Assembly: GCA_944391415.1 (NCBI GenBank)
Contig: CALXTM010000002.1
Location: forward strand, 62,001 to 126,000
Source of the DNA: an uncultured Alphaproteobacteria bacterium
GTDB lineage: Bacteria > Pseudomonadota > Alphaproteobacteria > RF32 > CAG-239
Length of the DNA: 64,000 nucleotides
Direction of reading: 5' to 3'
The position numbers were made by a program, and so were the translations under genes. Below the pieces are notes generated by a model that saw only the letters and a list, made by a program, of their open reading frames with translations, was not told the origin of the DNA and did not search any database. Below, piece by piece: positions 9,752-56,923 of the stretch (position 1 is the stretch's first letter; every line of letters begins with the position of its first letter).

Positions 9752-10921
9752 ATGCGGCGTAATATTGTGCTGTTTAAATGCCTTATGTTTTTTAACGGGT
9801 TGTGGTTGTTTTCTCCGTTGGCCGTGGTTTATTTTGACCAGGTTACTCATTCTTACGCCATGGCGATGTTAGCTTTTTCTTTGGTTAATATTTCGCAAAG
9901 TCTGGCCGAAATTCCTTGCGGTATGTTTTCTGACAGAATCAGCCGTAAAATGACTTTGATGCTGGGCGCTTTGTTTATGTGTGTTAACATGATACTGTGG
10001 GCGATGGCCGGATTTTTGGGCGCGGCGTGGTTGCTTTTTGCCGGTTCTGTTTTGAGAGGAATCGGCCTGGCATTAAAATCCGGAACTGATACCGCAATGA
10101 TTTATGAAAGTTTGCAAGAAATCAAAAAAAATAAATTGTTTAACCAAATTATTGCCAACGTCCTTTCTTTTTATCAGCTGGGGGCTTTGATTGCCGCTTT
10201 TGCCGCAACTTTTGTAACTTATTATTTTTCTTTGCAGTTTTTGGTATATTTGGCGGTTGTTCCTTACGCCGCAAATTTAATCGTAACCGCTTTATTGGTT
10301 AATCCTAAAAGCCGTTTCGAAAGAGGTTTGTCTCCTAAAGAACAGCTTAAAAAAAGTTTGCTTGTTTTTGTAAAAAACAAAAAATTGCGCCGTTATGCTT
10401 TGCTGCAATCTTTCAATAATTCTATTTTGGTATCGGCTTATCGGTTTGAACCGTCTTATTATGAGCAATTGGTTCCGATTTATTATGTAAACGTGGCCAG
10501 ATTGTTGCAAAATACCATGGGGTGGATAAGCTTTCAGTTGGTGGCTCTTTTTAACAAAGTGGGGTTGTTTAAGTTGTTTTGTTATTCGGTTTTTGGCAAT
10601 TCAATTGTTAAAATCATAGGTTTGATTATGAATAACCCGATAACTCCTTTCTTTTGCTCTTTGCAAAATTTGTTTTACGGGGTAAATTCTGCTTCTGCCA
10701 CAACTTTGCTACAACAACAATATTCTCCCAGTTTGCGGGCGACCATGGCTTCGGTTGTGGGGTTGTTTGGTAATATTATAATGGCAATTTTGGGATTTTT
10801 ATTCGGTTGGGCGGCTGATGTTTCTTCACCGCGAACAATATTGTTTATCGCCGCGCTTGCCAATTTGGCGCTGGCTTTAAAATATAGCAAATTTCTTCGA
10901 AAAGGTCTTAATAAAAAATAG
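9752..10921 (+). CDS. Major facilitator superfamily transporter
   Basis: A 389-aa polytopic protein with about 12 membrane segments. The MFS loop-2/3 motif appears as 'EIPCGMFSDRISRKMTLMLG' (residues about 53-72), and a second-half 'SVVGLFGNIIMAILGFLFG' resembles the equivalent position of the C-terminal bundle. Substrate unknown. It starts 2 bases after hydF stops, so it is likely cotranscribed; whether that has a functional meaning for hydrogenase maturation is unknown. Confidence 0.8.
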   Translation: MRRNIVLFKCLMFFNGLWLFSPLAVVYFDQVTHSYAMAMLAFSLVNISQSLAEIPCGMFSDRISRKMTLMLGALFMCVNMILWAMAGFLGAAWLLFAGSVLRGIGLALKSGTDTAMIYESLQEIKKNKLFNQIIANVLSFYQLGALIAAFAATFVTYYFSLQFLVYLAVVPYAANLIVTALLVNPKSRFERGLSPKEQLKKSLLVFVKNKKLRRYALLQSFNNSILVSAYRFEPSYYEQLVPIYYVNVARLLQNTMGWISFQLVALFNKVGLFKLFCYSVFGNSIVKIIGLIMNNPITPFFCSLQNLFYGVNSASATTLLQQQYSPSLRATMASVVGLFGNIIMAILGFLFGWAADVSSPRTILFIAALANLALALKYSKFLRKGLNKK

Positions 10922-10995
10922 CTTTCATGCCTTGTCTTTGCAAAAACAAAGATTATTTCTTTGAAGCGGTATAATTTTTTGCAAGGAGATAAAAG

Positions 10996-11379
10996 ATGAA
11001 AAAACTGTTGTTAGCTTTTATTTGTGTATTGGCTGTTGCCGTAAATGCGCAAGCTAAAAATAAACATAAAAACCAAGGATTTGTTTTTGTGCCGGAAAAC
11101 GTTGTTATTGAAACCGTGGCCGATGCCAAAGACAAAGCAGACGATACTATTGTGGTGTTGCAAGGACAAATTGTCAAAGCTTTGGGACATGATAAATATC
11201 AATTTACCGATGAAACCGGCGAAATCATTCTTGATATTGATGAAGACGATTTTAACGGAGTTACCGTTACCGAAGGTGAGATGATTGAAATCACCGGAGA
11301 GATTGACAAAGAAATGATGAAACCAACCGAAGTTAATGTTAAACAAATCAAAAAAATGGACAAGAAACACAAAAAATAA
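10996..11379 (+). CDS. Periplasmic OB-fold (BOF/YgiW-NirD type) protein
   Basis: A 127-aa exported protein with a signal peptide (MKKLLLAFICVLAVAVNAQA). It carries one bacterial OB-fold domain, with 'VVLQGQIVKAL...YQFTDETGEIILDID' and 'VTEGEMIEITGEIDKE'. Family members in enterobacteria (YgiW, YdeI) are linked to stress and peptide resistance; the role here is inferred only from family. The AAGGAG ribosome-binding site is clear, and a terminator follows immediately. Confidence 0.82.
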   Translation: MKKLLLAFICVLAVAVNAQAKNKHKNQGFVFVPENVVIETVADAKDKADDTIVVLQGQIVKALGHDKYQFTDETGEIILDIDEDDFNGVTVTEGEMIEITGEIDKEMMKPTEVNVKQIKKMDKKHKK

Positions 11380-11390
11380 AAAATAAGCCA

Positions 11391-11418
11391 AAAGCCCGTT
11401 TGCACAAACGGGCTTTTT
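11391..11418. terminator. Bidirectional terminator between the OB-fold and CCA genes
   Basis: A 12-bp perfect stem (AAAGCCCGTTTG/CAAACGGGCTTT), flanked by T on the plus side and A on the other, between convergent genes. Confidence 0.88.
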
Positions 11419-11420
11419 TA

Positions 11421-12656
11421 TTAAACAACCGCCTTAATATTTTCAATTTGAACCAATAGCTGTTCTTTGGTTAAATCAAAATCAGAATCTATCCAGATTT
11501 GCTCTAGTGTTTGTAATATCTTTCCGACCGTTGACGGGTCACTGATGCCATAATTAAAAATATCTTTGCCTTTTAGCGGAAACACCGGCTTGGATAAGGA
11601 GGCAATCTTTTGATATGTTTGCCACAGGTTGTCAGGTACCAGGCGTGTCTGTGCAACAAGCGCCAATAATTTTGCGCAACCAAGCTCTTGACTGCGGTTA
11701 TAGATAAAACGCAAAGCTTTTTTGGTGTCCAACAAGTCTTCAAGTTTGATGTTTTCTGCAGCCATAGAGACAAATAACTGTTTTTCTTTTTTGCTAAATT
11801 TTAAACGTACCGCCAAATTTTCTGCCAAGGCTTTGTTTGGTCGATACAAAATAAACATCTTTATTATTGCCGAATTATCAAATGATTGATCAGCACTTAT
11901 TTTATTAAAAAACTCCAGATCATCAATATATTCGGCATCGGGCATAACATAGCTTAAAATTCCATTTTGCTGAATAAGACGATATGCTTGGGGTGCATTT
12001 TTGCTTTCAATCAACTTGAACAATTCATCACGGATAAGCTCCATCGGAACTTTTTTGAGACCGGCACAATTTTCTCGGCAGGCATCAACTGCTTTTTGGT
12101 TGGGCTCCCCTGTTCCAAACAGCGAATAGAAACGAAAATAACGCAAAATACGCACATAATCTTCTTTAATTTTTTGCGAGGCTGAACCTATGAAGCGAAC
12201 ATAGCCTTTTTCCAAATCTTCTATACCGTTATAATAATCAAAAACATTGCCTTTCTCGTCGGCATAAACGGCATTAATGGTCAGGTCACGACGAGATGCG
12301 TCTTCTTCCCAGTTGTCAGTAAATTCCATTGTTACCGAGCCGTCTTCTTGTTTGACATACTTGCACAGAGAACTTACTTCAGCCGTTGTATCTCCGATAA
12401 CCACCCCTATTGTCCCTTGTTTGATGCCAAGCGGTATTGTTTCTATTCCCTCATCGGCGCAGGCCTCGGCTATTTCTTCGGGACTGAGGTCGGTGGCAAG
12501 GTTTAAATCATAGCCTTTTATTCCTTTTAGGGCATCGCGTACCGCACCGCCGACAAAACGCAAAACACCCCCGTGGCGCGCTACCAAGGCAAACAATTTC
12601 ATTATATCCTGATTGGTGGTTAGTTTGGAAATATCAAGATAGTTGTCGCGAATCAT
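11421..12656 (-). CDS. cca: CCA tRNA nucleotidyltransferase / poly(A) polymerase family
   Basis: Adds or repairs the 3' CCA of tRNAs. The 411-aa protein has the class II nucleotidyltransferase head: 'LRFVGGAVRDALKGIKGYDLNLATDLSPEE' near residues 30-60, 'SRRDLTINAVYAD' near residue 105, and the following 'IRFIGSASQKIKEDYVRILRYFRFYSLF' pattern. Most tRNA genes visible here already encode CCA, so the main job may be repair. Alphaproteobacteria usually carry one such enzyme; a poly(A) polymerase role is less likely. Confidence 0.88.
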   Translation of the reverse strand: MIRDNYLDISKLTTNQDIMKLFALVARHGGVLRFVGGAVRDALKGIKGYDLNLATDLSPEEIAEACADEGIETIPLGIKQGTIGVVIGDTTAEVSSLCKYVKQEDGSVTMEFTDNWEEDASRRDLTINAVYADEKGNVFDYYNGIEDLEKGYVRFIGSASQKIKEDYVRILRYFRFYSLFGTGEPNQKAVDACRENCAGLKKVPMELIRDELFKLIESKNAPQAYRLIQQNGILSYVMPDAEYIDDLEFFNKISADQSFDNSAIIKMFILYRPNKALAENLAVRLKFSKKEKQLFVSMAAENIKLEDLLDTKKALRFIYNRSQELGCAKLLALVAQTRLVPDNLWQTYQKIASLSKPVFPLKGKDIFNYGISDPSTVGKILQTLEQIWIDSDFDLTKEQLLVQIENIKAVV

Positions 12657-43871: not shown

Positions 43872-46100
43872 TTATTGTTGGTTATCCTGGTCATTATTTT
43901 CTTCTTCGAATTCTTCAAATTCTTCAAAATTCTCGTTAGGATCATAGCTTATGCCAAGTTTGGCAAGCATATCATCATTAATATCTTCTCTTTGGGCTAC
44001 AATCCAATCAGGAACATTTGGTGCCGGAGGAATTGCAGCCAGCGCTTTCATCTTGGAGTCAAGATACCATCTTGGCGAATCGGCCATAATCGGACGATCA
44101 ATATAGCTTTGCATTAAAACAACTTGTTTTAACATAGGCAAACTTAAGAGTTGGGTTGTTGATATAACAGAGACACCCTGCAAACTATAACTTACATTTT
44201 TTGCAAAAGGATTTGATCCTTTGGCAAAAGCGCCTTCGTTTTTAGAATAAGAGGTGGTTTGAACTGTTTTGTTACCAATCATTTTGGAAAAACGTTGGGC
44301 CGTTTGCTCATTGTTTTGCGATAAAATAACTTTGCAGGCGGTGGTTGAAATAACCGTTTCCAAGTCATCCTTGCCATATTTGCCGGAGATTTGGCCCAAA
44401 TCTTGGCCGATAAGCAAATATGATACTTTTTGGCCACGTCCTACCGCCGGACCATCAATGACGGCTTTGAGTTTTGGCATGGTAGGAAATTCGTCCATAA
44501 CGAACAGACAGGCAAAAGGCCCCATTGGACCATCGGTCGGGTTGACAAACTTTGGCGGATTAGCAATGAGGTATGATGACATAAGGTCAATAAAAGTTCC
44601 TGAAATTACGCTGAGTGCTCTGGCATCTACCTGGTTAACGGATAAATATACGGAAATAGGCTTGAACTCTCCGGTGATAGGGTCTTTAAGACCACGCAGA
44701 TCCTTAAAGTTGATATCTGAAAAACTGGTGCGAGCTACGACGGCAGAGTTTTTGAAAATGCCAATACCAGCAAAGGCGGTTGATAAAACAGAACCTCTTT
44801 CTTTATCTGGCATAGAACTTAATTGGCTAAGCTCAACAATAGAACGCGCAGAATAACCAAATTTACGCGCTTCATCAATGGCGGCCTCCAACAAATCACG
44901 CATCGGATCAGCCATGGCTGCCATCTGATCGCCTTCATCCATACGCCGTTTTATTTCCTGAGATTGTTTGATTTGAGCCTCGGTAATCCATTCCAAAATC
45001 ATGGCAATGCAAGCCTCATGGCCAATCCATTTTTCAGGCAACAATGCCCAGGTGCCAATAGGAACATAGTTATCAATGTTAAGAGAGTTTGAACGCAAAT
45101 TTTGCAAAGCTCTGATTGACATAGGGTCATTCATTTCAAGATAATACCCTTCGAGAACTTTTTTATCGTCTTCGTCAAGCTTGCCTTCATAGATGCGGCC
45201 AATAAAATAATCATTGGCACGGGCTTTTTCACATTTTGAGACAATGAAGTGAATAAATCCGGTTAAAGCGGCACGGCCGGTTTTAGACCAGTGCGGATCA
45301 GCTCCGCCTTTTGGGTCTTCAACCAAAACATTGCACATAGAATCGACGTACATATCGCGGCTTGGTCCCGGAGCAGGTATGGCCGACGGTGACAAAGGAT
45401 TCCAGCTGGGGTAATATATTCCTTCGGCGGGATTATCTTCCATACCCCAGTTGATAATAAATACAGGTCCAACCTTGGCTCTGGCACCAGAGGTTGAAAA
45501 ACACAATTCCGGTTTGGGGTCGTTGACAACGATACTCATGTTGGGTGAGTGAAAAATTGTCGGTATAACAACACCTGCCGTTTTACCAGTACCCGGAGGT
45601 GCGCAACACAAAACTGATAGAGTTTCGTTCATGCGAAGTAATTTGCCCTTGAATTTGCCAACAACAATGCAAAAACCGTCGAGGAGACCCATCTTTTTAA
45701 TATCGCTCATTTCGGCAAGACGTGCAGAACCATGAATGTTTGATTGAAAACGGTAGGGATTGGTTATTACACCGATAAGACACCCCAGTGGTAGACTAAT
45801 AAACGGCAGTATCGGAATCCATAAACTTACGGCAAAAGGACCATTGTAATTAAGAAGCTGCTTAAACCAAATCCAATAACGTTCATACAAAAAACCACTT
45901 TTGTTAAACACTAAAGAGAAAAATTTGGAAACATCATTGATGCTTTCTTTGGAAATGCCGTTGCCTATGATATAAGCCAAAGGCATGGATGTCAGCGCCA
46001 ATATTAAAGTGATGATAACAGAAATAACAATGGTTATTACTGTCCATCTAACCGCGCTGTTATATTCTTTCCATTCTTCACCTTCTTTTTCTAATGCCAT
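43872..46100 (-). CDS. VirD4/TraG-type type IV coupling ATPase
   Basis: A 742-aa inner-membrane ATPase of the type IV coupling protein family. Two N-terminal membrane segments (about residues 20-45 and 90-112) precede Walker A 'CAPPGTGKTAGVVIP' (about 166-180) and Walker B 'CLFVMDEFP' (about 531-539); 'VAGRGQKVSYLLIGQDLGQI'-like text (residues 552-571) matches the TraG core. The last 25 residues are nearly all Glu/Asn/Asp/Gln/Phe, an acidic tail as in substrate-docking ends of other coupling proteins. It is the last gene of a six-gene cluster with no relaxase and no VirB genes, so its substrate and channel are unknown. Confidence 0.88.
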   Translation of the reverse strand: MALEKEGEEWKEYNSAVRWTVITIVISVIITLILALTSMPLAYIIGNGISKESINDVSKFFSLVFNKSGFLYERYWIWFKQLLNYNGPFAVSLWIPILPFISLPLGCLIGVITNPYRFQSNIHGSARLAEMSDIKKMGLLDGFCIVVGKFKGKLLRMNETLSVLCCAPPGTGKTAGVVIPTIFHSPNMSIVVNDPKPELCFSTSGARAKVGPVFIINWGMEDNPAEGIYYPSWNPLSPSAIPAPGPSRDMYVDSMCNVLVEDPKGGADPHWSKTGRAALTGFIHFIVSKCEKARANDYFIGRIYEGKLDEDDKKVLEGYYLEMNDPMSIRALQNLRSNSLNIDNYVPIGTWALLPEKWIGHEACIAMILEWITEAQIKQSQEIKRRMDEGDQMAAMADPMRDLLEAAIDEARKFGYSARSIVELSQLSSMPDKERGSVLSTAFAGIGIFKNSAVVARTSFSDINFKDLRGLKDPITGEFKPISVYLSVNQVDARALSVISGTFIDLMSSYLIANPPKFVNPTDGPMGPFACLFVMDEFPTMPKLKAVIDGPAVGRGQKVSYLLIGQDLGQISGKYGKDDLETVISTTACKVILSQNNEQTAQRFSKMIGNKTVQTTSYSKNEGAFAKGSNPFAKNVSYSLQGVSVISTTQLLSLPMLKQVVLMQSYIDRPIMADSPRWYLDSKMKALAAIPPAPNVPDWIVAQREDINDDMLAKLGISYDPNENFEEFEEFEEENNDQDNQQ

Positions 46101-46116
46101 TTTTTCCTCTTTGTTT

Positions 46117-47349
46117 TTAAGCTATACTGCGTAAAAGTTTTTTGATTTTGTCGACAACAGATTTATCGGCTTGGCCATCTGCTTCTTCCAATGTTTTGGA
46201 AAATAAAGGAATTTCTTTTGGAGTGCCGCGGTCGATACGAGTTACCTTGACACCAATATCATTCCAAATATCAAACATGTCTTCGGCATTGATAATATTG
46301 CCTATTTGCTCAATAACAAATGCGGTTATGTCAAAAGATAAATCTGCTTCTTTTAATTTTTCGTCAAGAGTTGTACGAGCTAAATCAACTTTGCGAACCG
46401 GAGATATACGGTGGGAACTTTCCGAAAACCAGAGTGGCTCTTCATCGTTAAATCTTTCTTCATCAGCCAACCAGTCACCAGGCTCTTTGTCATTGAGGCA
46501 AAGACAAATTTTGCTTTTGGAAATGCCTATAAAATCAATAAATGTGTTCTTTATGGTTGCTCCGGTAATGATTTCATAACCTTTTTGTTTGAGAAGCTCA
46601 AAAGAAGAGTTGACGCTGCCGGTTTTTGGTTTGTTAGATGACGTTTGTCCAGGAGAAGATTTTTTCTTTGGATAATTATCTGATGATTTGGTGTTTTGTT
46701 TGGGTTTGGCCTCAACTGGTGGAGGAGTTTCCGATGGTTTTTCTTCAAACAAATCAAAATCAATCGGTTCGCTGTCATCCATTTCAAACAGAGAATGGGT
46801 AAATTCTTTTGGAGCAGATGGAGCGGCTGGTTTGGAAAAGATAGTCTTGGGTGAAACGCTTATACCAGATAGAGCAGCTCTTTTTTGCTCGTCAAAGGCA
46901 GAAATTGGTTGGGCACTGCCTTCATCCAGAGGAGGTCTGATGCTGCGAGGCCTGATTTCTTTATAAGATTTCTTTTTCTTTACAACTTTGACTGAGGCGG
47001 TGGCAGCGATTTTTTCAACCTGGTTGCCAAACAAAGCGTTGAAAATATCAAGCGGTATTAGCCATAAAATTTTAAAAATCTTTCCCCATTTGATGGTGCT
47101 TAATGCTGCCCAAACCGTAATCCAAACAGGAATGGCAGTAAGGACAATAAGTACAAAAGCCCATTCTTTGGGCTCGTCGATAACCCAGCCTGACAACCAT
47201 AAATTCCAGGCATGCTCCCAATGGGTCAGGCGAAAAATATCAAAATGCCAGTTGGTGAGCATAATAACACGGATTCCCTCGATGAAGAAAATACTCCAAC
47301 AAAGGCCCACCAAAGTTATTCGTAGCAAAATGATTAAGGGTTTCAACAA
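46117..47349 (-). CDS. Membrane protein with conserved WHFD loop and large cytosolic domain
   Basis: A 410-aa protein, probably three N-terminal membrane segments in residues 5-115 with the loop 'NWHFDIFRLTHWEHAWN', a Pro/Lys/Ser-rich linker (about 120-240) and a folded C-terminal domain. That domain reads 'LLKQKGYEIITGATIKNTFI' then 'DFIGISKSKICLCLNDKE', which recalls the core of PD-(D/E)XK-like folds, with a non-canonical NDK end; this is only a suggestion. It shares its N-terminal layout with the next gene upstream. It lies 16 bases before the coupling ATPase, so a complex with it is plausible. Confidence 0.65.
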   Translation of the reverse strand: MLKPLIILLRITLVGLCWSIFFIEGIRVIMLTNWHFDIFRLTHWEHAWNLWLSGWVIDEPKEWAFVLIVLTAIPVWITVWAALSTIKWGKIFKILWLIPLDIFNALFGNQVEKIAATASVKVVKKKKSYKEIRPRSIRPPLDEGSAQPISAFDEQKRAALSGISVSPKTIFSKPAAPSAPKEFTHSLFEMDDSEPIDFDLFEEKPSETPPPVEAKPKQNTKSSDNYPKKKSSPGQTSSNKPKTGSVNSSFELLKQKGYEIITGATIKNTFIDFIGISKSKICLCLNDKEPGDWLADEERFNDEEPLWFSESSHRISPVRKVDLARTTLDEKLKEADLSFDITAFVIEQIGNIINAEDMFDIWNDIGVKVTRIDRGTPKEIPLFSKTLEEADGQADKSVVDKIKKLLRSIA

Positions 47350-47405
47350 AAATCTCCAAAATATCTTTTGTTTATTATACTAATATAAAATTGGTTAACA
47401 ATAGT

Positions 47406-47894
47406 TTATTTTCTTTGGTTTTTTATTTCTGCAGATATTTTTTGAGTTATATCTGAGCGGATATCCGAAGCATTTTTGGATTCTTCAGGTTTGATGGAGT
47501 CAATTTCGGTTTTGATTTCTTCAATAATTTGCTCGGAATCTTTGATGTTTTTTAGTACCAAGCGCTCAGAATCAGTATCTGACGAACTAAAAAGATTGAT
47601 AATCAAATCAATCGGTTTAAGAAAAAATTCTTTATATTGCAATCTTAAAGCCAAAATAAAGCCGACAATCCATAAAAACGGCAGCAAAAACAAAGACAAC
47701 AGCAATAAAATATCAGATGTTGTTTTGATAACGCCGCCATGATTCCAAAAAGATGAAAGCAAAAACCAAGAGTGTGATGACATAAAGTCAAAATGCCAGA
47801 CAAGGTTAATCAGAAGATTGGAGAAGATAACAAAGACAGTCGTCCACCCTATAAAAACCAGCAAGTTGCGGATAGCTTTGAGGAGTTTTTTCAT
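47406..47894 (-). CDS. Small membrane paralogue with WHFD loop
   Basis: A 162-aa protein with three predicted membrane segments and 'LVWHFDFMSSHSWFLLSSFW', which aligns with the N-terminus of the 410-aa neighbour. A helical, Glu/Lys/Ser-rich cytosolic tail follows ('IIEEIKTEIDSIKPEESKNA'). It looks like a shorter paralogue lacking the folded domain. No known family recognised. The next gene upstream ends 6 bases before its start. Confidence 0.62.
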   Translation of the reverse strand: MKKLLKAIRNLLVFIGWTTVFVIFSNLLINLVWHFDFMSSHSWFLLSSFWNHGGVIKTTSDILLLLSLFLLPFLWIVGFILALRLQYKEFFLKPIDLIINLFSSSDTDSERLVLKNIKDSEQIIEEIKTEIDSIKPEESKNASDIRSDITQKISAEIKNQRK

Positions 47895-47900
47895 TACCGA

Positions 47901-49883
47901 TTATCTCCCGGTTCCAGAATTGTTGCGAGTATTAGGTTGTGGAGCTTTGGTAGGCTGACTTGCTTTGCCAGGGTTTTGTTTGTTGGCGGTTATGTTTTTG
48001 TAGGCTTGTTCAACACTAGCGCGTCTTTTTTGAAGATCGGGAGTTGTGTTACCAAGCTCTTGTTCAGCCAAGGATATATCGGTTATTTCCGCTTTATACA
48101 GGTCGGTATAATCGGTTTTGGCATAATCACTCATTAAAGTTGCGGTGTTTTCACGTGTAGCCTTGGAAGGATCAACAATTGTAATTAATTTTTCATCCTT
48201 GATGTCTGGATTTTCTTTGGCTTGATTTGCAAGAGAAGCGGCCTCGTCGATAAGGGCTTCACGAGATAAAACAGGCTCTCCTTGTCTGCGTTTGTTTTCG
48301 GCAACAAGAAAGATGTATTTTGCCTCTTCTTGGGATTGAGCTATAAAATCTTGAAATTTTTGCGTATCTGTTAAAATTTCGCTTGGCGGAGTTTGATGCG
48401 ACAGATCATATACCTTGTAGGCCCCATAGTGTTCGGCAAACAAACCCATCTGAGCTTCAAACTGTTTTTTAACCGGTTCAAAAGCAAGCATTTCGAGCTG
48501 TTGTTCACGATAGTCAGATAAATGAGCGCTGATATCTTTGGCAAATGACGGGGTATTTGGCTGTTGAAGGGTTGGGTTGTCTTTGGTTAGAACGCAGTTT
48601 TCTTCATATGCAAGGCGCTGTTTGTACCATTGCTCAACCTCGGCGTCATGACCGGGGTAGCATTCTTTTAGATGAGAAAGTTGGGCAGAGCGAATATTGT
48701 CTCTGAAGGTTGTAAAATCTTTTTTGACATCAACGGATGAAGATATTTCATTAAAAGGTTTTGAGGTGCTGTCATATTCGATAATCTGATTTTCGCCAAT
48801 TACGGCAGTATTGTAAAGCAGTCTTTCTTGATAGTGAAGTAAAGTATCTTTGCGCGGGTCGTCAGATAGATATGCTTGAATATGCTTTTGATAATTTGCT
48901 TTGTTATTATCATAGATGCTGTTAAAAGAGGCTAAGATATCAGGATTGGATGGTTGGTTATTGTTGCCTTCCGGAGAGGGGGTGCTGCCATTGCCGTCGG
49001 TTTCCTTGCCAGAGGAAGAAAAAATTTTTTTTACTTTTTTCCAGGCAGGTTCGGTAACATTATGATGAACTCCTGAAATAATTTCATAGCCTACAATACC
49101 GACAAATCCGGCAGCTTTATTGCCAGCCCAAGCTGCCGAGGCCAGAATAACCTCCTTCATTAAATAATCTATAATGTCGCCTTGTTCTATTTTGAAATTG
49201 TCATCGTCTTTTTTGTGTCCCCAATCAGGATCGCGCATAGGTCCCTTGTAACGACCAATATCATTTGGATCGATGTCATCACCGTATTTTTTGGCTTTTA
49301 ACAGCTTTTGAAGTCGCTCTTGTTCGGTAATATCAAGAAAACTCATATAATTGTTGAGCTCTTCTTGATCGAATATTTCGAGAACTTCTTCATCACTTTT
49401 GGGAGCCGGCATACTTTTGAGCGAAGATACTTCTTTGGGGACAGGGTTTTCTTCGTAAACCGAGCTGATATCTGATGATATTTGATTGTGGGCGGTTTCT
49501 TCATCAGAGGATGTTGACATGGTTTGAGCCGCAAAATATTTCATTAACTCTTGGGGAGCCAATTCTTTTTTGAGCTGTGAATCCGAAAAAGCGGTTTTAC
49601 CCTCGGGCGGGGTGATGCCACGCTTGGCGGCAAATACGTCAACAGCTGCGGCATAGGTTTTGATTTGAGAGGCAGAAGGTCTAAATTTGCGGTCTTTGCT
49701 GGCACGATAAAAAGCTACCGAGGCTTGTAAAAAGAGAGAATTGCGTTTTTGCGGTGTTTCGGCATTTAGAGCTTGGGAGATGTCGCTTGTCTTTGATGAT
49801 TTTAGCTCAGCAGTGAGGAGTTTTGCAACTGATCCGCGGATGTTGTCTGAAACGGTTCTTGAAGATGTAGTGGTGGTGGCCAT
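47901..49883 (-). CDS. Large hypothetical protein of the coupling-ATPase cluster
   Basis: A 660-aa, mostly hydrophilic helical protein. The N-terminal 130 residues are Ser/Thr/Ala-rich. A central block 'IGRYKGPMRDPDWGHKKDDD' and 'EQGDIIDYLMKEVILASAAW' leads into a weakly hydrophobic 'GNKAAGFVGIVGYEIISG'. A Gly/Ser/Asn/Pro linker (about residues 300-325) separates this from a long helical C-terminal half and a low-complexity tail. I do not recognise a family. Its size, modular build and place in the operon make it a candidate substrate or scaffold of the ATPase. Confidence 0.6.
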   Translation of the reverse strand: MATTTTSSRTVSDNIRGSVAKLLTAELKSSKTSDISQALNAETPQKRNSLFLQASVAFYRASKDRKFRPSASQIKTYAAAVDVFAAKRGITPPEGKTAFSDSQLKKELAPQELMKYFAAQTMSTSSDEETAHNQISSDISSVYEENPVPKEVSSLKSMPAPKSDEEVLEIFDQEELNNYMSFLDITEQERLQKLLKAKKYGDDIDPNDIGRYKGPMRDPDWGHKKDDDNFKIEQGDIIDYLMKEVILASAAWAGNKAAGFVGIVGYEIISGVHHNVTEPAWKKVKKIFSSSGKETDGNGSTPSPEGNNNQPSNPDILASFNSIYDNNKANYQKHIQAYLSDDPRKDTLLHYQERLLYNTAVIGENQIIEYDSTSKPFNEISSSVDVKKDFTTFRDNIRSAQLSHLKECYPGHDAEVEQWYKQRLAYEENCVLTKDNPTLQQPNTPSFAKDISAHLSDYREQQLEMLAFEPVKKQFEAQMGLFAEHYGAYKVYDLSHQTPPSEILTDTQKFQDFIAQSQEEAKYIFLVAENKRRQGEPVLSREALIDEAASLANQAKENPDIKDEKLITIVDPSKATRENTATLMSDYAKTDYTDLYKAEITDISLAEQELGNTTPDLQKRRASVEQAYKNITANKQNPGKASQPTKAPQPNTRNNSGTGR

Positions 49884-49964
49884 GATGGGGCTCCTTGTCT
49901 AAAAATTTTTATTATATTCAGTATAACAATAATTTTATATTTTGTCTATATTTTTGCAAAAAAA

Positions 49965-50852
49965 TTATGCTTTAAGGTGCTTTAAAAATTTTCCTAAGCG
50001 TTTGTTTATCCTTATTCCATCTTCGGGCTTGGGTTTGATAAGGCCAAAAAATTTGGGCTTAATTTTGTCAAATTGGATGGGAGCAAAAGTGGCCGGGCTG
50101 TTTTCAAGAACTTTTTGCGCTCCGTCAGGGTCTTTGCGGGAGGTTTTGAAAAAGTTGTTAACCAACATCTCGGCGTCAATCGGAAAATTTTTGGCACGAA
50201 TAGCCTTAATATATTGTCGCATTTTTTCGCGGCGGCGTTGTTCTTCTTCAAAAATTTGTTTTTCGATTTTGTATTTTTGATATTTAACTTTGCGCAAGTT
50301 ATAAGCTACCTCGCAAGATTCAAGCTCAATAAGGGTTTCGACATATGAAATAAGAGCATTTTGCAGATTAGAATCGGTGGTCTTTTCGGCAAAATTTAAA
50401 ATCTGCTCATCACTGGGGTTAGCCGGAAGAGACTGCAGTCTGGTTGGTTGAGATAAAATTAAAACCTCCCATGCAGATAGAATATCTTTATGGATGTTTT
50501 TGGCGCGAGAAGGTCTAAAACGGGGTAAGATGTCAGAAATGGTAAAATGAAATTCCGGGATTTCTACATTAGCCTCGTTGCCACAATTGGTTACAGCCAC
50601 AATAAAGGTATTATAAGCATTGTAGAGGCGTTTTTCTTCAGGATACAGTTTATCAAATTGTTCGTTGTTGAGTTGTTCGGTTTCTAGAAGGCTACTTACA
50701 GAAAAATCATCGTCTTGAGAGGTTGTTGGTGCAGGCGAGGGCTTTTGTACCGATTTGTCGTTTAGCTCGGCAAGATGATCCTCGGTGTCTTGCAATTGCG
50801 AGTTAATAAACTCGTCTAAAAGTCTGTCAAAATCTTCGGAAGATGAGGACAT
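49965..50852 (-). CDS. Hypothetical helical cytosolic protein
   Basis: A 295-aa protein without signal peptide or membrane segment. It begins 'MSSSSEDFDRLLDEFINSQL', a short acidic helix typical of protein-protein contact, then an acidic/Gln linker and a helical core with a basic stretch 'FEEEQRRREKMRQYIKAIRA' likely to be coiled. No family recognised. It is the second gene of the cluster, 10 bases after the first. Confidence 0.6.
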   Translation of the reverse strand: MSSSSEDFDRLLDEFINSQLQDTEDHLAELNDKSVQKPSPAPTTSQDDDFSVSSLLETEQLNNEQFDKLYPEEKRLYNAYNTFIVAVTNCGNEANVEIPEFHFTISDILPRFRPSRAKNIHKDILSAWEVLILSQPTRLQSLPANPSDEQILNFAEKTTDSNLQNALISYVETLIELESCEVAYNLRKVKYQKYKIEKQIFEEEQRRREKMRQYIKAIRAKNFPIDAEMLVNNFFKTSRKDPDGAQKVLENSPATFAPIQFDKIKPKFFGLIKPKPEDGIRINKRLGKFLKHLKA

Positions 50853-53217: not shown

Positions 53218-53700
53218 TTACTCATCATTTGGTAAGATATTGGCCCAATTTTCAGATAATTTTGCCAGCTTGGCATTGATTACTTTTAATCGATGCTGAG
53301 CTGAACTTTTAAATATAAACACGAACAGATCCGGTAAAATGTAGTATAAAAATACACCCAAAGCAGCTCCACCCAGCATGATTACAACATTAAAAATGTT
53401 GGAAGCAACCGAAAATTCAACACCACTGTCAAATTGATTAAAAATATTATTAAGACAAATCATGGCTCCGGCAATGTTAAAACAGCCAACGGTGGTTATT
53501 CTGGTTAAATTTTTGGTGTCGGTTACAATGATGGTGATGGTCGGAAGCAGGCCGATAGCAAGAACTACAACAGCCGGAAAAACCGTAAAAGATACTATCA
53601 TAAGGCTTAAAAACAAAATAATCTTTTGAAAAAAATTCATTTTTTTCTTGGAGTTTTTTTGCGCTTTTGACACAGGTGTTTTTAATGATGGTTTGTTCAT
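53218..53700 (-). CDS. Small membrane protein coupled to the pseudokinase gene
   Basis: A 160-aa protein with about four hydrophobic segments (broadly residues 24-50, 60-80, 95-110, 118-135) and basic ends. The ATG overlaps the upstream pseudokinase stop as ATGA, a sign of translational coupling and shared function. It converges on rpoH with one base between the stops. No family recognised. Confidence 0.65.
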   Translation of the reverse strand: MNKPSLKTPVSKAQKNSKKKMNFFQKIILFLSLMIVSFTVFPAVVVLAIGLLPTITIIVTDTKNLTRITTVGCFNIAGAMICLNNIFNQFDSGVEFSVASNIFNVVIMLGGAALGVFLYYILPDLFVFIFKSSAQHRLKVINAKLAKLSENWANILPNDE

Positions 53701-55712
53701 TTTAATATCCAATAAATAAGGCTGAATACAAAAGCACTCAGCATGGTTAATACGGCAAGAATTGATGAAAATCGTAATGCAAGATCCCGGGCCTCATCCT
53801 CTATTTTGGAATCACCGGAAAGAATTTTGGCTTTTTCGGTAAGTAGAAAATTAGCTGTTTTGAGGGCCTCGGAAAAATCTGTTTTATCTCTGTTGCGAGC
53901 CTCTTCATTGTCCAAAAGATTGACAATTTCTATGATTTTGCCGGTTTTGGATATTTGTAAGAGTTCTTGCTCAAGATATTTTTGATATTTAAGATTGTGA
54001 TAACTTTGAATCAGCGGTTTGGAGACGCTGACAAGCCAATGAGCCAAATTGTTGAGCTGGGCTGGGCCGTTTTTGTTTTGGATATTGGCATAAAGTCTGA
54101 TTATCGCGCCAATTTTTAGAGAATCTTGATTGGCATTAAGATCTATTAAAATGCCGTCAATTTTTTTGCCCATTTTACAACGCAGGTAGGCAATAATATT
54201 TTTATCAAACGGAAGGGTTTGATAATCGCCTTTGAAACGATCAAGTGCTTTGAGCAAACGCGATAAATTGTTTACAAAACAATTACCTATAAGCGGGCTT
54301 ATACAAGGCAGGTTTTCGTCAAAATCATACATGATGCGGTCAAAACCGTAGCCATAATCGTTGCGTGAAATATAGAGCTTAAATTCTCCGGCATTGGCAG
54401 GAGCTCGTAAAAACGGTTGTTCCTGATACCAAAGTTTGATGATGTCAGTGGCTATCAAAGACTGCAAAGGAGACAGCGAAAGGTTATTTTTTTTGTGATA
54501 AAAAATGGTTTTGGCAAGGCCGCCCGGGAAAAGATAAAAATCTCCGCATCTTAGCGGTAAAGAACAATCAAGATAAATGCAAATACGTGATAGCAAAAGG
54601 TCTTTGTCGGGATTTTCTTTGTCGGCCAAAATTTGTTTTTCGATTTTGCCATAAAGTTTTTCGTCTTCAAGTCCGGTCTTTACCCATTCAAGCAGTTTGC
54701 CGCTTTGAATAACCTCTATACCAAAGTCAGGATTGGTAAGCATGTTAAGTGATGCGCTTTTGCGAGTGTAGCATTTTTCACCATTGACGTTGAGAGCCCT
54801 GGTGGAACGCTCGGAAGAATCTCCGGAGGAAAAAGAGGTTGTTTTTCCGTCATAATAGTTATATAGTTTGGCATAATCGCAGCGGCTTTCCGGATTATCA
54901 TCAAGCAAAGAGCGCAAGACAACCGAGGTTTGGCTGCTGATTTTCTCGTTATTTGACAGAAAAATCAAGGAGCCGTTTTTCAATTTTTGACGAATCATCT
55001 CTTTGGTAGAAAATTCTGACGAAATGGGATGATTGAGTACGAGGCTTAGCAAAACAACACCGGCAGAATAGAGGTCATGTTCAAATGTCCCGTCTCCTTT
55101 GGATTGAGGATGACACAACATATTCTCTATGGCTTCATAAACATCAGGCTGATAGAGTCCGGGAAAGCTTGCCAAGCAATCACCTAAAACCAATTCTTTG
55201 CGCGATGGATCCTTATAAAATACATTGTCAAGCCTTATGGCGCGGTGGGTCAGGCCAAAGGTCTTTAGAACATCGCAGGCCGACAATAGTGACAAAGCCA
55301 ATGATTTGAAGGTTTCGGAGCTCATTTTTTCGGCTGTGTCGTCAAAAGAATCAGCACGAGGACCTGTTGGTTTGTTATAAATTAAAGCCATGGTCTCGAC
55401 CCCGTCAGGGTCGGTGATGATGCCATATTCTATTAATTTTAGGATATTAGGCGCATCAATTGCTTTCATATAGGGCAAGTAAGACAGACGAGGAGAAGAA
55501 TCGGTGCTGCAAACCAAGGCAAAAATATTGCGCTGAGGGTTGATATTGTCTTTTACTTCATAGGCTAGAGCCCCATTGCTGTCTAGTTTTGGCAAAGGTT
55601 GATCAAAACGTATTTCAAAACGCTCTTTTAATAAAAAACTGGTTATGCCGACAGGTGTAGAGGCTTTTTTGTTGTCTTCGGTCGGGGTTTGACTGATTAC
55701 TTCATCGCTCAT
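53697..55712 (-). CDS. Tail-anchored eukaryotic-like pseudokinase
   Basis: A 671-aa protein. Residues about 30-290 have the protein-kinase layout: the catalytic loop is 'GLTHRAIRLDNVFY' (HRD Asp replaced by Ala, Asn kept), the DFG is 'GDCLAS', and the alphaF motif 'EHDLYSAGVVLLSL' is intact. The nucleotide lysine position reads 'FALVCS' without Lys and the glycine loop is poor, so catalysis is unlikely. Residues 290-640 are a long helical region of unknown type, and a C-terminal hydrophobic segment ('VLTMLSAFVFSLIYWILK') should anchor it in the membrane with the kinase fold in the cytosol. Confidence 0.8.
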   Translation of the reverse strand: MSDEVISQTPTEDNKKASTPVGITSFLLKERFEIRFDQPLPKLDSNGALAYEVKDNINPQRNIFALVCSTDSSPRLSYLPYMKAIDAPNILKLIEYGIITDPDGVETMALIYNKPTGPRADSFDDTAEKMSSETFKSLALSLLSACDVLKTFGLTHRAIRLDNVFYKDPSRKELVLGDCLASFPGLYQPDVYEAIENMLCHPQSKGDGTFEHDLYSAGVVLLSLVLNHPISSEFSTKEMIRQKLKNGSLIFLSNNEKISSQTSVVLRSLLDDNPESRCDYAKLYNYYDGKTTSFSSGDSSERSTRALNVNGEKCYTRKSASLNMLTNPDFGIEVIQSGKLLEWVKTGLEDEKLYGKIEKQILADKENPDKDLLLSRICIYLDCSLPLRCGDFYLFPGGLAKTIFYHKKNNLSLSPLQSLIATDIIKLWYQEQPFLRAPANAGEFKLYISRNDYGYGFDRIMYDFDENLPCISPLIGNCFVNNLSRLLKALDRFKGDYQTLPFDKNIIAYLRCKMGKKIDGILIDLNANQDSLKIGAIIRLYANIQNKNGPAQLNNLAHWLVSVSKPLIQSYHNLKYQKYLEQELLQISKTGKIIEIVNLLDNEEARNRDKTDFSEALKTANFLLTEKAKILSGDSKIEDEARDLALRFSSILAVLTMLSAFVFSLIYWILK

Positions 55713-55849: not shown

Positions 55850-56923
55850 ATGACAGACCAATCAATAAATATTATACAGAATTTGGATGGTGATGACAAA
55901 GTAGTTACCGTAAACGATGTGGATACGGCAATCTTAAAAGATGCCAAAAAATATAATATTGATTTGGAAAAATTAGAAAACCCCATAACAGTACAAAAAC
56001 CGTTGCCGGTTATGGAAAAAAGACGTGCGGAAACATGGCGGCGGTTGGATGTTAATTTGTCTGATGTCGTTAATCTTATGATTGCAACATCTGAAAGACC
56101 GACTTTTTTAATAAGAGACGATAAGCTTGTTTATATTAATCAGGCGGCGATAAAAATGTTGGAGTTGGAATCAGACAGAGATGTGGTAGGAAAAAATTTT
56201 TTGAATTTGGTGGTGCCGGAAGAATGGAATATGTTGGCCGAAAATATCGGTGAAATGCTTACAAACGGTAAAATCATAAGAATCCATTTTAAGAATGCTT
56301 CGGGAGTGACCAAGGCAATGAATTTTCAGGCAATTTATTTGTCGGAGATAGAACATTTCTCATTTATTTTGCTTGGAGAACACGTTAAAAAAGAAGAAAA
56401 AATATCGGTTAATAATTTGTATGATGATTTGACAGGGTTGCCTAATTTCTTTTTGTTTGAAGACAGGGTACAAGTGGCGGTGTCTATGGAAAATATTAAA
56501 GACAACGCAAAAGACCAAAAGATGATTGCCGTGGCCGCAATTAGCATTAATAACATGGAATCTTTTCGCAGGATGCATATAGAGGATTTTGTAGTCAAAA
56601 AAATTGCAAACAACCTGGTGCTTAATCTAAATAAAATGACGACCGTGGCTTTGGGAGTGAAATATAATTTTTGGATTATGTTGCAAGGGGTTAAAAATCA
56701 GGCCGAAATCAATCATGAAATAAGACATGTGTTTGAGATTTTAAATGATGGAATAAGCGATAACTTTACGAGGCATGAACTTTCTTTTTCTATTGGCGTG
56801 GCCTGTTTTCCGCAGCCGGCGCATTCTGCCAAAAAATTGATAGAGCAAGCAATCTCTGCAGTTAAAAACGCGCAAAGAAGCAACAAAAATTCCATAGAGT
56901 TTTTTGAAAGCAAAAATAATTAA
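55850..56923 (+). CDS. PAS plus degenerate GGDEF signalling protein
   Basis: A 357-aa cytosolic protein. The PAS domain (about residues 70-180) reads 'TFLIRDDKLVYINQAAIKML' and 'VVGKNFLNLVVPEEW'. The GGDEF-type domain starts with 'DDLTGLPNFFLFEDRVQVAV' (about 188-207) and ends with the family 'LSFSIGVACFPQPAHSAKKL', but the GGDEF loop itself is 'GVKYNFWIM', lacking the catalytic residues. It is likely a sensor or c-di-GMP-independent adaptor rather than a cyclase. Confidence 0.8.
   Translation: MTDQSINIIQNLDGDDKVVTVNDVDTAILKDAKKYNIDLEKLENPITVQKPLPVMEKRRAETWRRLDVNLSDVVNLMIATSERPTFLIRDDKLVYINQAAIKMLELESDRDVVGKNFLNLVVPEEWNMLAENIGEMLTNGKIIRIHFKNASGVTKAMNFQAIYLSEIEHFSFILLGEHVKKEEKISVNNLYDDLTGLPNFFLFEDRVQVAVSMENIKDNAKDQKMIAVAAISINNMESFRRMHIEDFVVKKIANNLVLNLNKMTTVALGVKYNFWIMLQGVKNQAEINHEIRHVFEILNDGISDNFTRHELSFSIGVACFPQPAHSAKKLIEQAISAVKNAQRSNKNSIEFFESKNN

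Follow-up and report, generated by a model that had tools for sequence, protein, structure and literature searches.

A predicted tail-anchored pseudokinase family of Alphaproteobacteria and its small membrane-protein partner

The locus described here raises the question as to what role could be served by a protein which has the fold of a protein kinase but has lost key catalytic residues, and whose gene runs directly into that of a small membrane protein. The two genes, referred to below as KIN and MEM, are located in a 64,000-nucleotide stretch of alphaproteobacterial DNA (the window), and the coordinates of their features are given in Table 1. A preliminary description of this DNA had interpreted KIN as a tail-anchored pseudokinase, translationally coupled to its neighbour, and had suggested that both may form one system with a coupling ATPase encoded nearby. 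The answer presented here is based upon the predicted fold, the missing catalytic residues, signs of purifying selection, gene order, and the finding that the two genes occur together and are absent together.

Table 1. Features of the KIN-MEM locus (positions in the window)
Feature	Coordinates	Strand	Details or basis
KIN, pseudokinase with C-terminal tail anchor, 671 aa	53697..55712	-	
Pseudokinase domain, residues about 24-290	54843..55643	-	Pfam Pkinase, AlphaFold, Foldseek
Catalytic loop THRAIRLDN, residues 155-163	55224..55250	-	Ala158 replaces HRD Asp, Arg160 replaces loop Lys, Asn163 kept
DCL instead of DFG, residues 178-180	55173..55181	-	Asp178 invariant in family
C-terminal mainly helical domain, residues 301-645	53778..54812	-	Model m5ce584b0e28c
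C-terminal transmembrane tail anchor, residues 651-669	53706..53762	-	Hydropathy, KIN and homologues
KIN/MEM stop/start overlap, ATGA	53697..53700	-	
MEM, partner membrane protein, 160 aa from ATG	53218..53700	-	Hydrophobic segments 27-45 and 96-114 (simple hydropathy); conserved LLPT and Arg...Trp motifs

The kinase fold and its altered active site

The match of KIN to the Pfam Pkinase profile (E=3e-7) falls slightly short of the curated cut-off, while that of its relative L074 lies above it (E 8.8e-12). The AlphaFold model of KIN (m5d424cb4d19a; 36 sequences) has a mean pLDDT of 86.5, and Foldseek searches with its N-terminal part retrieve kinases, PknB and CDPK among them, with E values of about 1e-9 and a TM score (target) of about 0.7 for PknB. 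Profile search and structure prediction thus support the kinase fold proposed earlier for this region and, together with the alignment, indicate a two-lobed structure in which, as had been noted, the catalytic-loop Asn and the alphaF Asp are retained. Residue equivalences were taken from the family profile aligned to solved kinases, where HRA is paired with HRD, Arg160 with the Lys of HRDxK, Asn163 with the loop Asn, and Asp178 with the Asp of DFG. The earlier reading of HRA in place of HRD is confirmed by this alignment, whereas that of DCL in place of DFG was correct for the Phe and Gly but not for the Asp, which is kept. The beta3 strand reads FALVC and contains no lysine, in agreement with the earlier failure to recognise a VAIK Lys, the glycine-rich loop is degenerate, and from the register the alphaC Glu would also appear to be absent. 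Hence, although the overall fold is shared with canonical bacterial Ser/Thr kinases such as PknB, neither the HRD Asp nor the beta3 Lys of an active enzyme is present in KIN.

These changes are not peculiar to the copy in the window. In 36 distinct sequences from its taxonomic family, residue 158 is either Ala or Ser, and Asn163, Asp178, Arg160 and the alphaF Asp213 are invariant. Among 43 sequences sampled at the level of the class, residue 158 is never Asp, the alphaF Asp is found in all, Asn163 in 40 and Arg160 in 38, while residue 178 is Asp in 19, Glu in 17, and Pro or Gln in 7. The beta3 Lys, which is absent in the family, is missing in 42 of the 43 and present in one. An Asp at the HRD position was therefore seen in none of about 78 distinct sequences compared (36 family and 43 class-level), and because it is missing in every sequence sampled, its loss must be old. 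Homologues with intact HRD, DFG and Lys, which would have pointed to a decayed allele, were not encountered; instead, the HRA/S change is fixed, as had been anticipated. Based on these results, the identification of KIN as a genuine pseudokinase is supported.

The gene is full length, and its open reading frame ends in the anchor noted in the preliminary description. Only two residues follow the hydrophobic segment, which lies within a helix (residues 635-670) of the AlphaFold model, and in the family members listed the anchor is trailed by only 1-9 residues. The region between the kinase fold and the anchor was also predicted alone (48 sequences), giving a pLDDT of 91.7. For this region (residues 301-645) no sequence match at E<=1 was found in the PDB, the best Foldseek match was only at E 0.8, and VIA-align 2 gave a best Z of 5.2 (rmsd 3.3, 67 residues) against a designed cage, with no family standing out and a similarity that may reflect just a common arrangement of helices in the models. 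Due to these weak results, our claim is limited to KIN adding a confidently predicted helical domain with no clear relative among solved structures, and a new fold is not thereby proven. When 299 genomes from the phylum were searched, this domain was detected in 8, all of them from the window's class; the share of the 299 from outside the class is not given, and no taxonomic limit follows from this distribution.

Pairing with MEM and inheritance across the class

KIN is present in 59 of 126 genomes of the family and in 130 of 385 genomes of the class, i.e. in about one third of the latter. In both samples its frames, about 670-750 residues in length, are almost always open, few matches being interrupted by contig ends or by a stop. 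In the two closest pairs dN is 0.14 against a dS near 4 (pairwise dN ranges from 0.14 to 0.19); dS is saturated at this distance and the ratio is informative for direction only, and KIN is under strong purifying selection.

The association of KIN with MEM is very close. The stop codon of KIN (TGA, 53697-53699) shares bases with the ATG of MEM (53698-53700), and the ATGA overlap thus borne out is found in 31 of the 36 distinct family members, the remaining five having TAATGA. At the class level, MEM occurs in all 130 KIN-positive genomes but in no more than 3 of the 255 KIN-negative ones, and all three of these are contig-end cases: in one a fragment of KIN is cut off by the end of the contig (G373), in another the contig edge ends MEM itself (G198), and in the third the match to MEM begins at base 2 of the contig (G184). 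For 37 of 42 class-level KIN genes MEM is located directly 3' on the same strand, and tandem duplicates at two loci (L085 and L092) preserve the order KIN-MEM-KIN-MEM. It is clear from these results that MEM is an obligate partner of KIN. The membrane complex that the coupling had been taken to imply fits this obligate pairing, and the two proteins probably associate physically. The other 5 of the 42 KIN genes, mostly second copies, have no MEM adjacent to them, and therefore the kinase part may in some cases act alone.

Several minor observations concern these paralogues. The duplications in L085 (6328-11661) and L092 (4723-9892) encompass the whole pair; pocket residues differ between the copies, and the duplicated pairs might form heteromers. 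The genus g31 has solo MEM paralogues without KIN (L126, 6378-10717), one of which adjoins genes for a hybrid histidine kinase and a response regulator, and a KIN paralogue without adjacent MEM lies near a type VI secretion ImpA_N (TssA) gene (L099, 6573-10562). No consistent functional clue was found in the KIN and MEM paralogue neighbourhoods examined. Assignment of MEM itself to BenE (Pfam E 0.0034) or Monooxygenase_B (E 0.0023) was rejected, both matches being short of the curated cut-offs.

Known pseudokinases and the probable role of the pair

Among the described bacterial pseudokinases, EssB/YukC, an interaction hub of type VIIb secretion (PMC12599244), and TraF, a hub of the pIP501 type IV system (PMC13037476), resemble KIN in being membrane-anchored proteins with degraded catalytic motifs. 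However, these two function in secretion systems of Gram-positive hosts and are encoded with them, whereas KIN belongs to Alphaproteobacteria and its usual locus has the order hisZ-purA-KIN-MEM followed by the convergent rpoH and rluD (hisZ and purA being assigned from sequence). In TraF two distinct soluble domains flank the membrane segment, whereas the anchor of KIN is at the extreme C-terminus and is not followed by a further folded domain, as the membrane segments of EssB/YukC and TraF are. Unlike both, KIN has a large helical domain between the kinase fold and the anchor, and a small membrane protein as its partner.

A 2025 review of pseudokinases lists the families ActPs1-3, GLW, CP1, DYD and DLHK and the singletons EssB, SidJ and SelO. 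Our comparison took in EssB/TraF, GLW, ActPs2, CP1, SelO/SidJ and DLHK, from each of which KIN departs in a defining feature. The GLW proteins are, like KIN, proteobacterial with a C-terminal membrane region and a hydrophobic residue in place of the beta3 Lys, but they carry GLW for HRD, where the KIN family has HRA, HRS or HGx with the loop Asn kept. ActPs2 proteins share with KIN the lost HRD Asp, a C-terminal membrane region and an active-site Arg; however, they are mainly actinobacterial, have HRN and a beta3 Lys changed to Arg, most have a DFG deletion, and they contain large disordered insertions. CP1 proteins have a linked COG3899 ATPase domain and no transmembrane region, whereas KIN has an anchor, and Pfam scans of KIN and its relative L074 found no ATPase domain. 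The DLHK proteins, which keep the catalytic Asp and are without transmembrane regions, are the opposite of KIN in both respects. Matches to the anti-phage kinase systems MAD6, PD-T4-6 and MkoA were weak, confined to the generic kinase domain, and rejected. No published alphaproteobacterial pseudokinase like KIN was found in the literature searched and, on these sequence comparisons, KIN is filed as a putative new bacterial pseudokinase family, set apart by its domain architecture and by its obligate partner.

Considering these observations, we regard it as reasonably probable that KIN and MEM constitute a two-protein membrane module, inherited across Alphaproteobacteria, which acts as a non-catalytic scaffold or adaptor, and in which KIN, judging from its residues, does not act as a kinase through the standard mechanism. 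The kinase fold and the helical domain would be located in the cytoplasm, the tail anchor would hold KIN at the inner membrane, where it would form its obligate complex with MEM, and clients would be recruited by the helical domain and by the face of the pseudokinase, so that the complex could recruit and position other proteins. A scaffold role is most likely by analogy with EssB/YukC and TraF; the KIN genes without adjacent MEM and the g31 copies of MEM without KIN, noted earlier, count against the module, as does the invariance of Asn163 and Asp178 in the family.

KIN-MEM is thus an unstudied and probably non-catalytic membrane module. The public annotation of Azospirillum thermophilum, which confirms the usual neighbourhood, labels KIN as 'serine/threonine protein kinase' and MEM as 'hypothetical protein', and it is this kinase label that KIN bears in the Azospirillum records L123 and L124; such proteins would be counted as active enzymes although the catalytic Asp is missing from every member sampled. 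As KIN has a clear partner gene, is encoded at a single-copy locus in many genomes and has relatives in culturable Azospirillum, its function is directly testable.

Other interpretations of the locus

The invariance of Asn163 and Asp178 in the family suggests that the pocket may still do something, perhaps metal or nucleotide binding. Since such binding is compatible with the Asn and the acidic residue that are kept, two other functions have to be considered. The first is that the pocket (Asn163, Asp/Glu178 and Arg160) binds metal or a nucleotide and catalyses some other ATP-dependent transfer, in the manner of SelO (AMPylation) or SidJ (glutamylation). The conservation of these three residues, with an acidic residue 178 in 36 of the 43 class-level sequences, agrees with such an activity. 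However, SelO and SidJ retain the Lys of the ATP-binding motif (table in PMC12599244), while KIN has neither this Lys nor an intact glycine-rich loop, and the Pro or Gln at residue 178 in some members also argues against it; we therefore consider it rather unlikely. Equally doubtful is a broader proposal that KIN represents a class-wide, undescribed pseudokinase family whose pocket may have become a nucleotide sensor or acquired a new activity dependent on ATP or metal, working only with MEM.

The second function would be the sensing of a purine nucleotide, which the module would bind and whose level it would signal to a membrane target. This fits the position of KIN downstream of purA in many loci of the class and in A. 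thermophilum, as well as the Asn and acidic residue kept in its pocket. However, purA does not adjoin KIN in the window's own family, further copies of KIN are located elsewhere, and the beta3 Lys is lacking, all of which make this sensor improbable.

It is considerably less probable that KIN is part of the adjoining type IV-like system, as TraF, itself a type IV pseudokinase (PMC13037476), is in Gram-positive bacteria. Close linkage, both in the window and in loci of the family, favours this proposal. The ATPase, a match to Pfam T4SS-DNA_transf, is of the TraG/VirD4 type (742 aa) and lies with four associated genes (410, 162, 660 and 295 aa) at 43872-50852 of the window. The preliminary description correctly placed rpoH and rluD between it and the pair, but these are not the only intervening genes, as a DUF6476-like ORF and the four cluster genes are also found there. 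More importantly, the ATPase (E<=1e-30) is present in 117 of the 126 family genomes, occurring in 58 of 59 with KIN and in 59 of 67 without it, which reveals no link, and one 100% complete genome (G034) has KIN and MEM but no ATPase. In three relatives (L116, L118 and L121) KIN and MEM are jointly absent while the neighbouring genes are intact in the order 295-aa cluster gene, DUF6476-like ORF, rluD, rpoH and PAS-GGDEF gene. The joint absence and the ATPase pattern indicate that the two genes are gained or lost together, with no dependence on the ATPase, and the proposal of one system is thus not borne out. That KIN is a kinase allele in decay which no longer has a function, as its lost catalytic motifs might suggest, is refuted by the same losses throughout the class, the open frames across the genus and class and the strong purifying selection, and can be dismissed with near certainty.

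Three other observations were made in passing. A second ATPase, 31% identical to the first, is present in genome G000 (C4:93599-95413). The PAS-GGDEF gene (55850-56923 of the window), which is oriented divergently from KIN, adjoins rpoH also in relatives without KIN. The only other Pkinase match of G000 (L072, C26 about 10921-11496) is in an apparent vWA-PP2C-kinase triad, as read by eye; this kinase keeps DLKPSN and therefore looks active.
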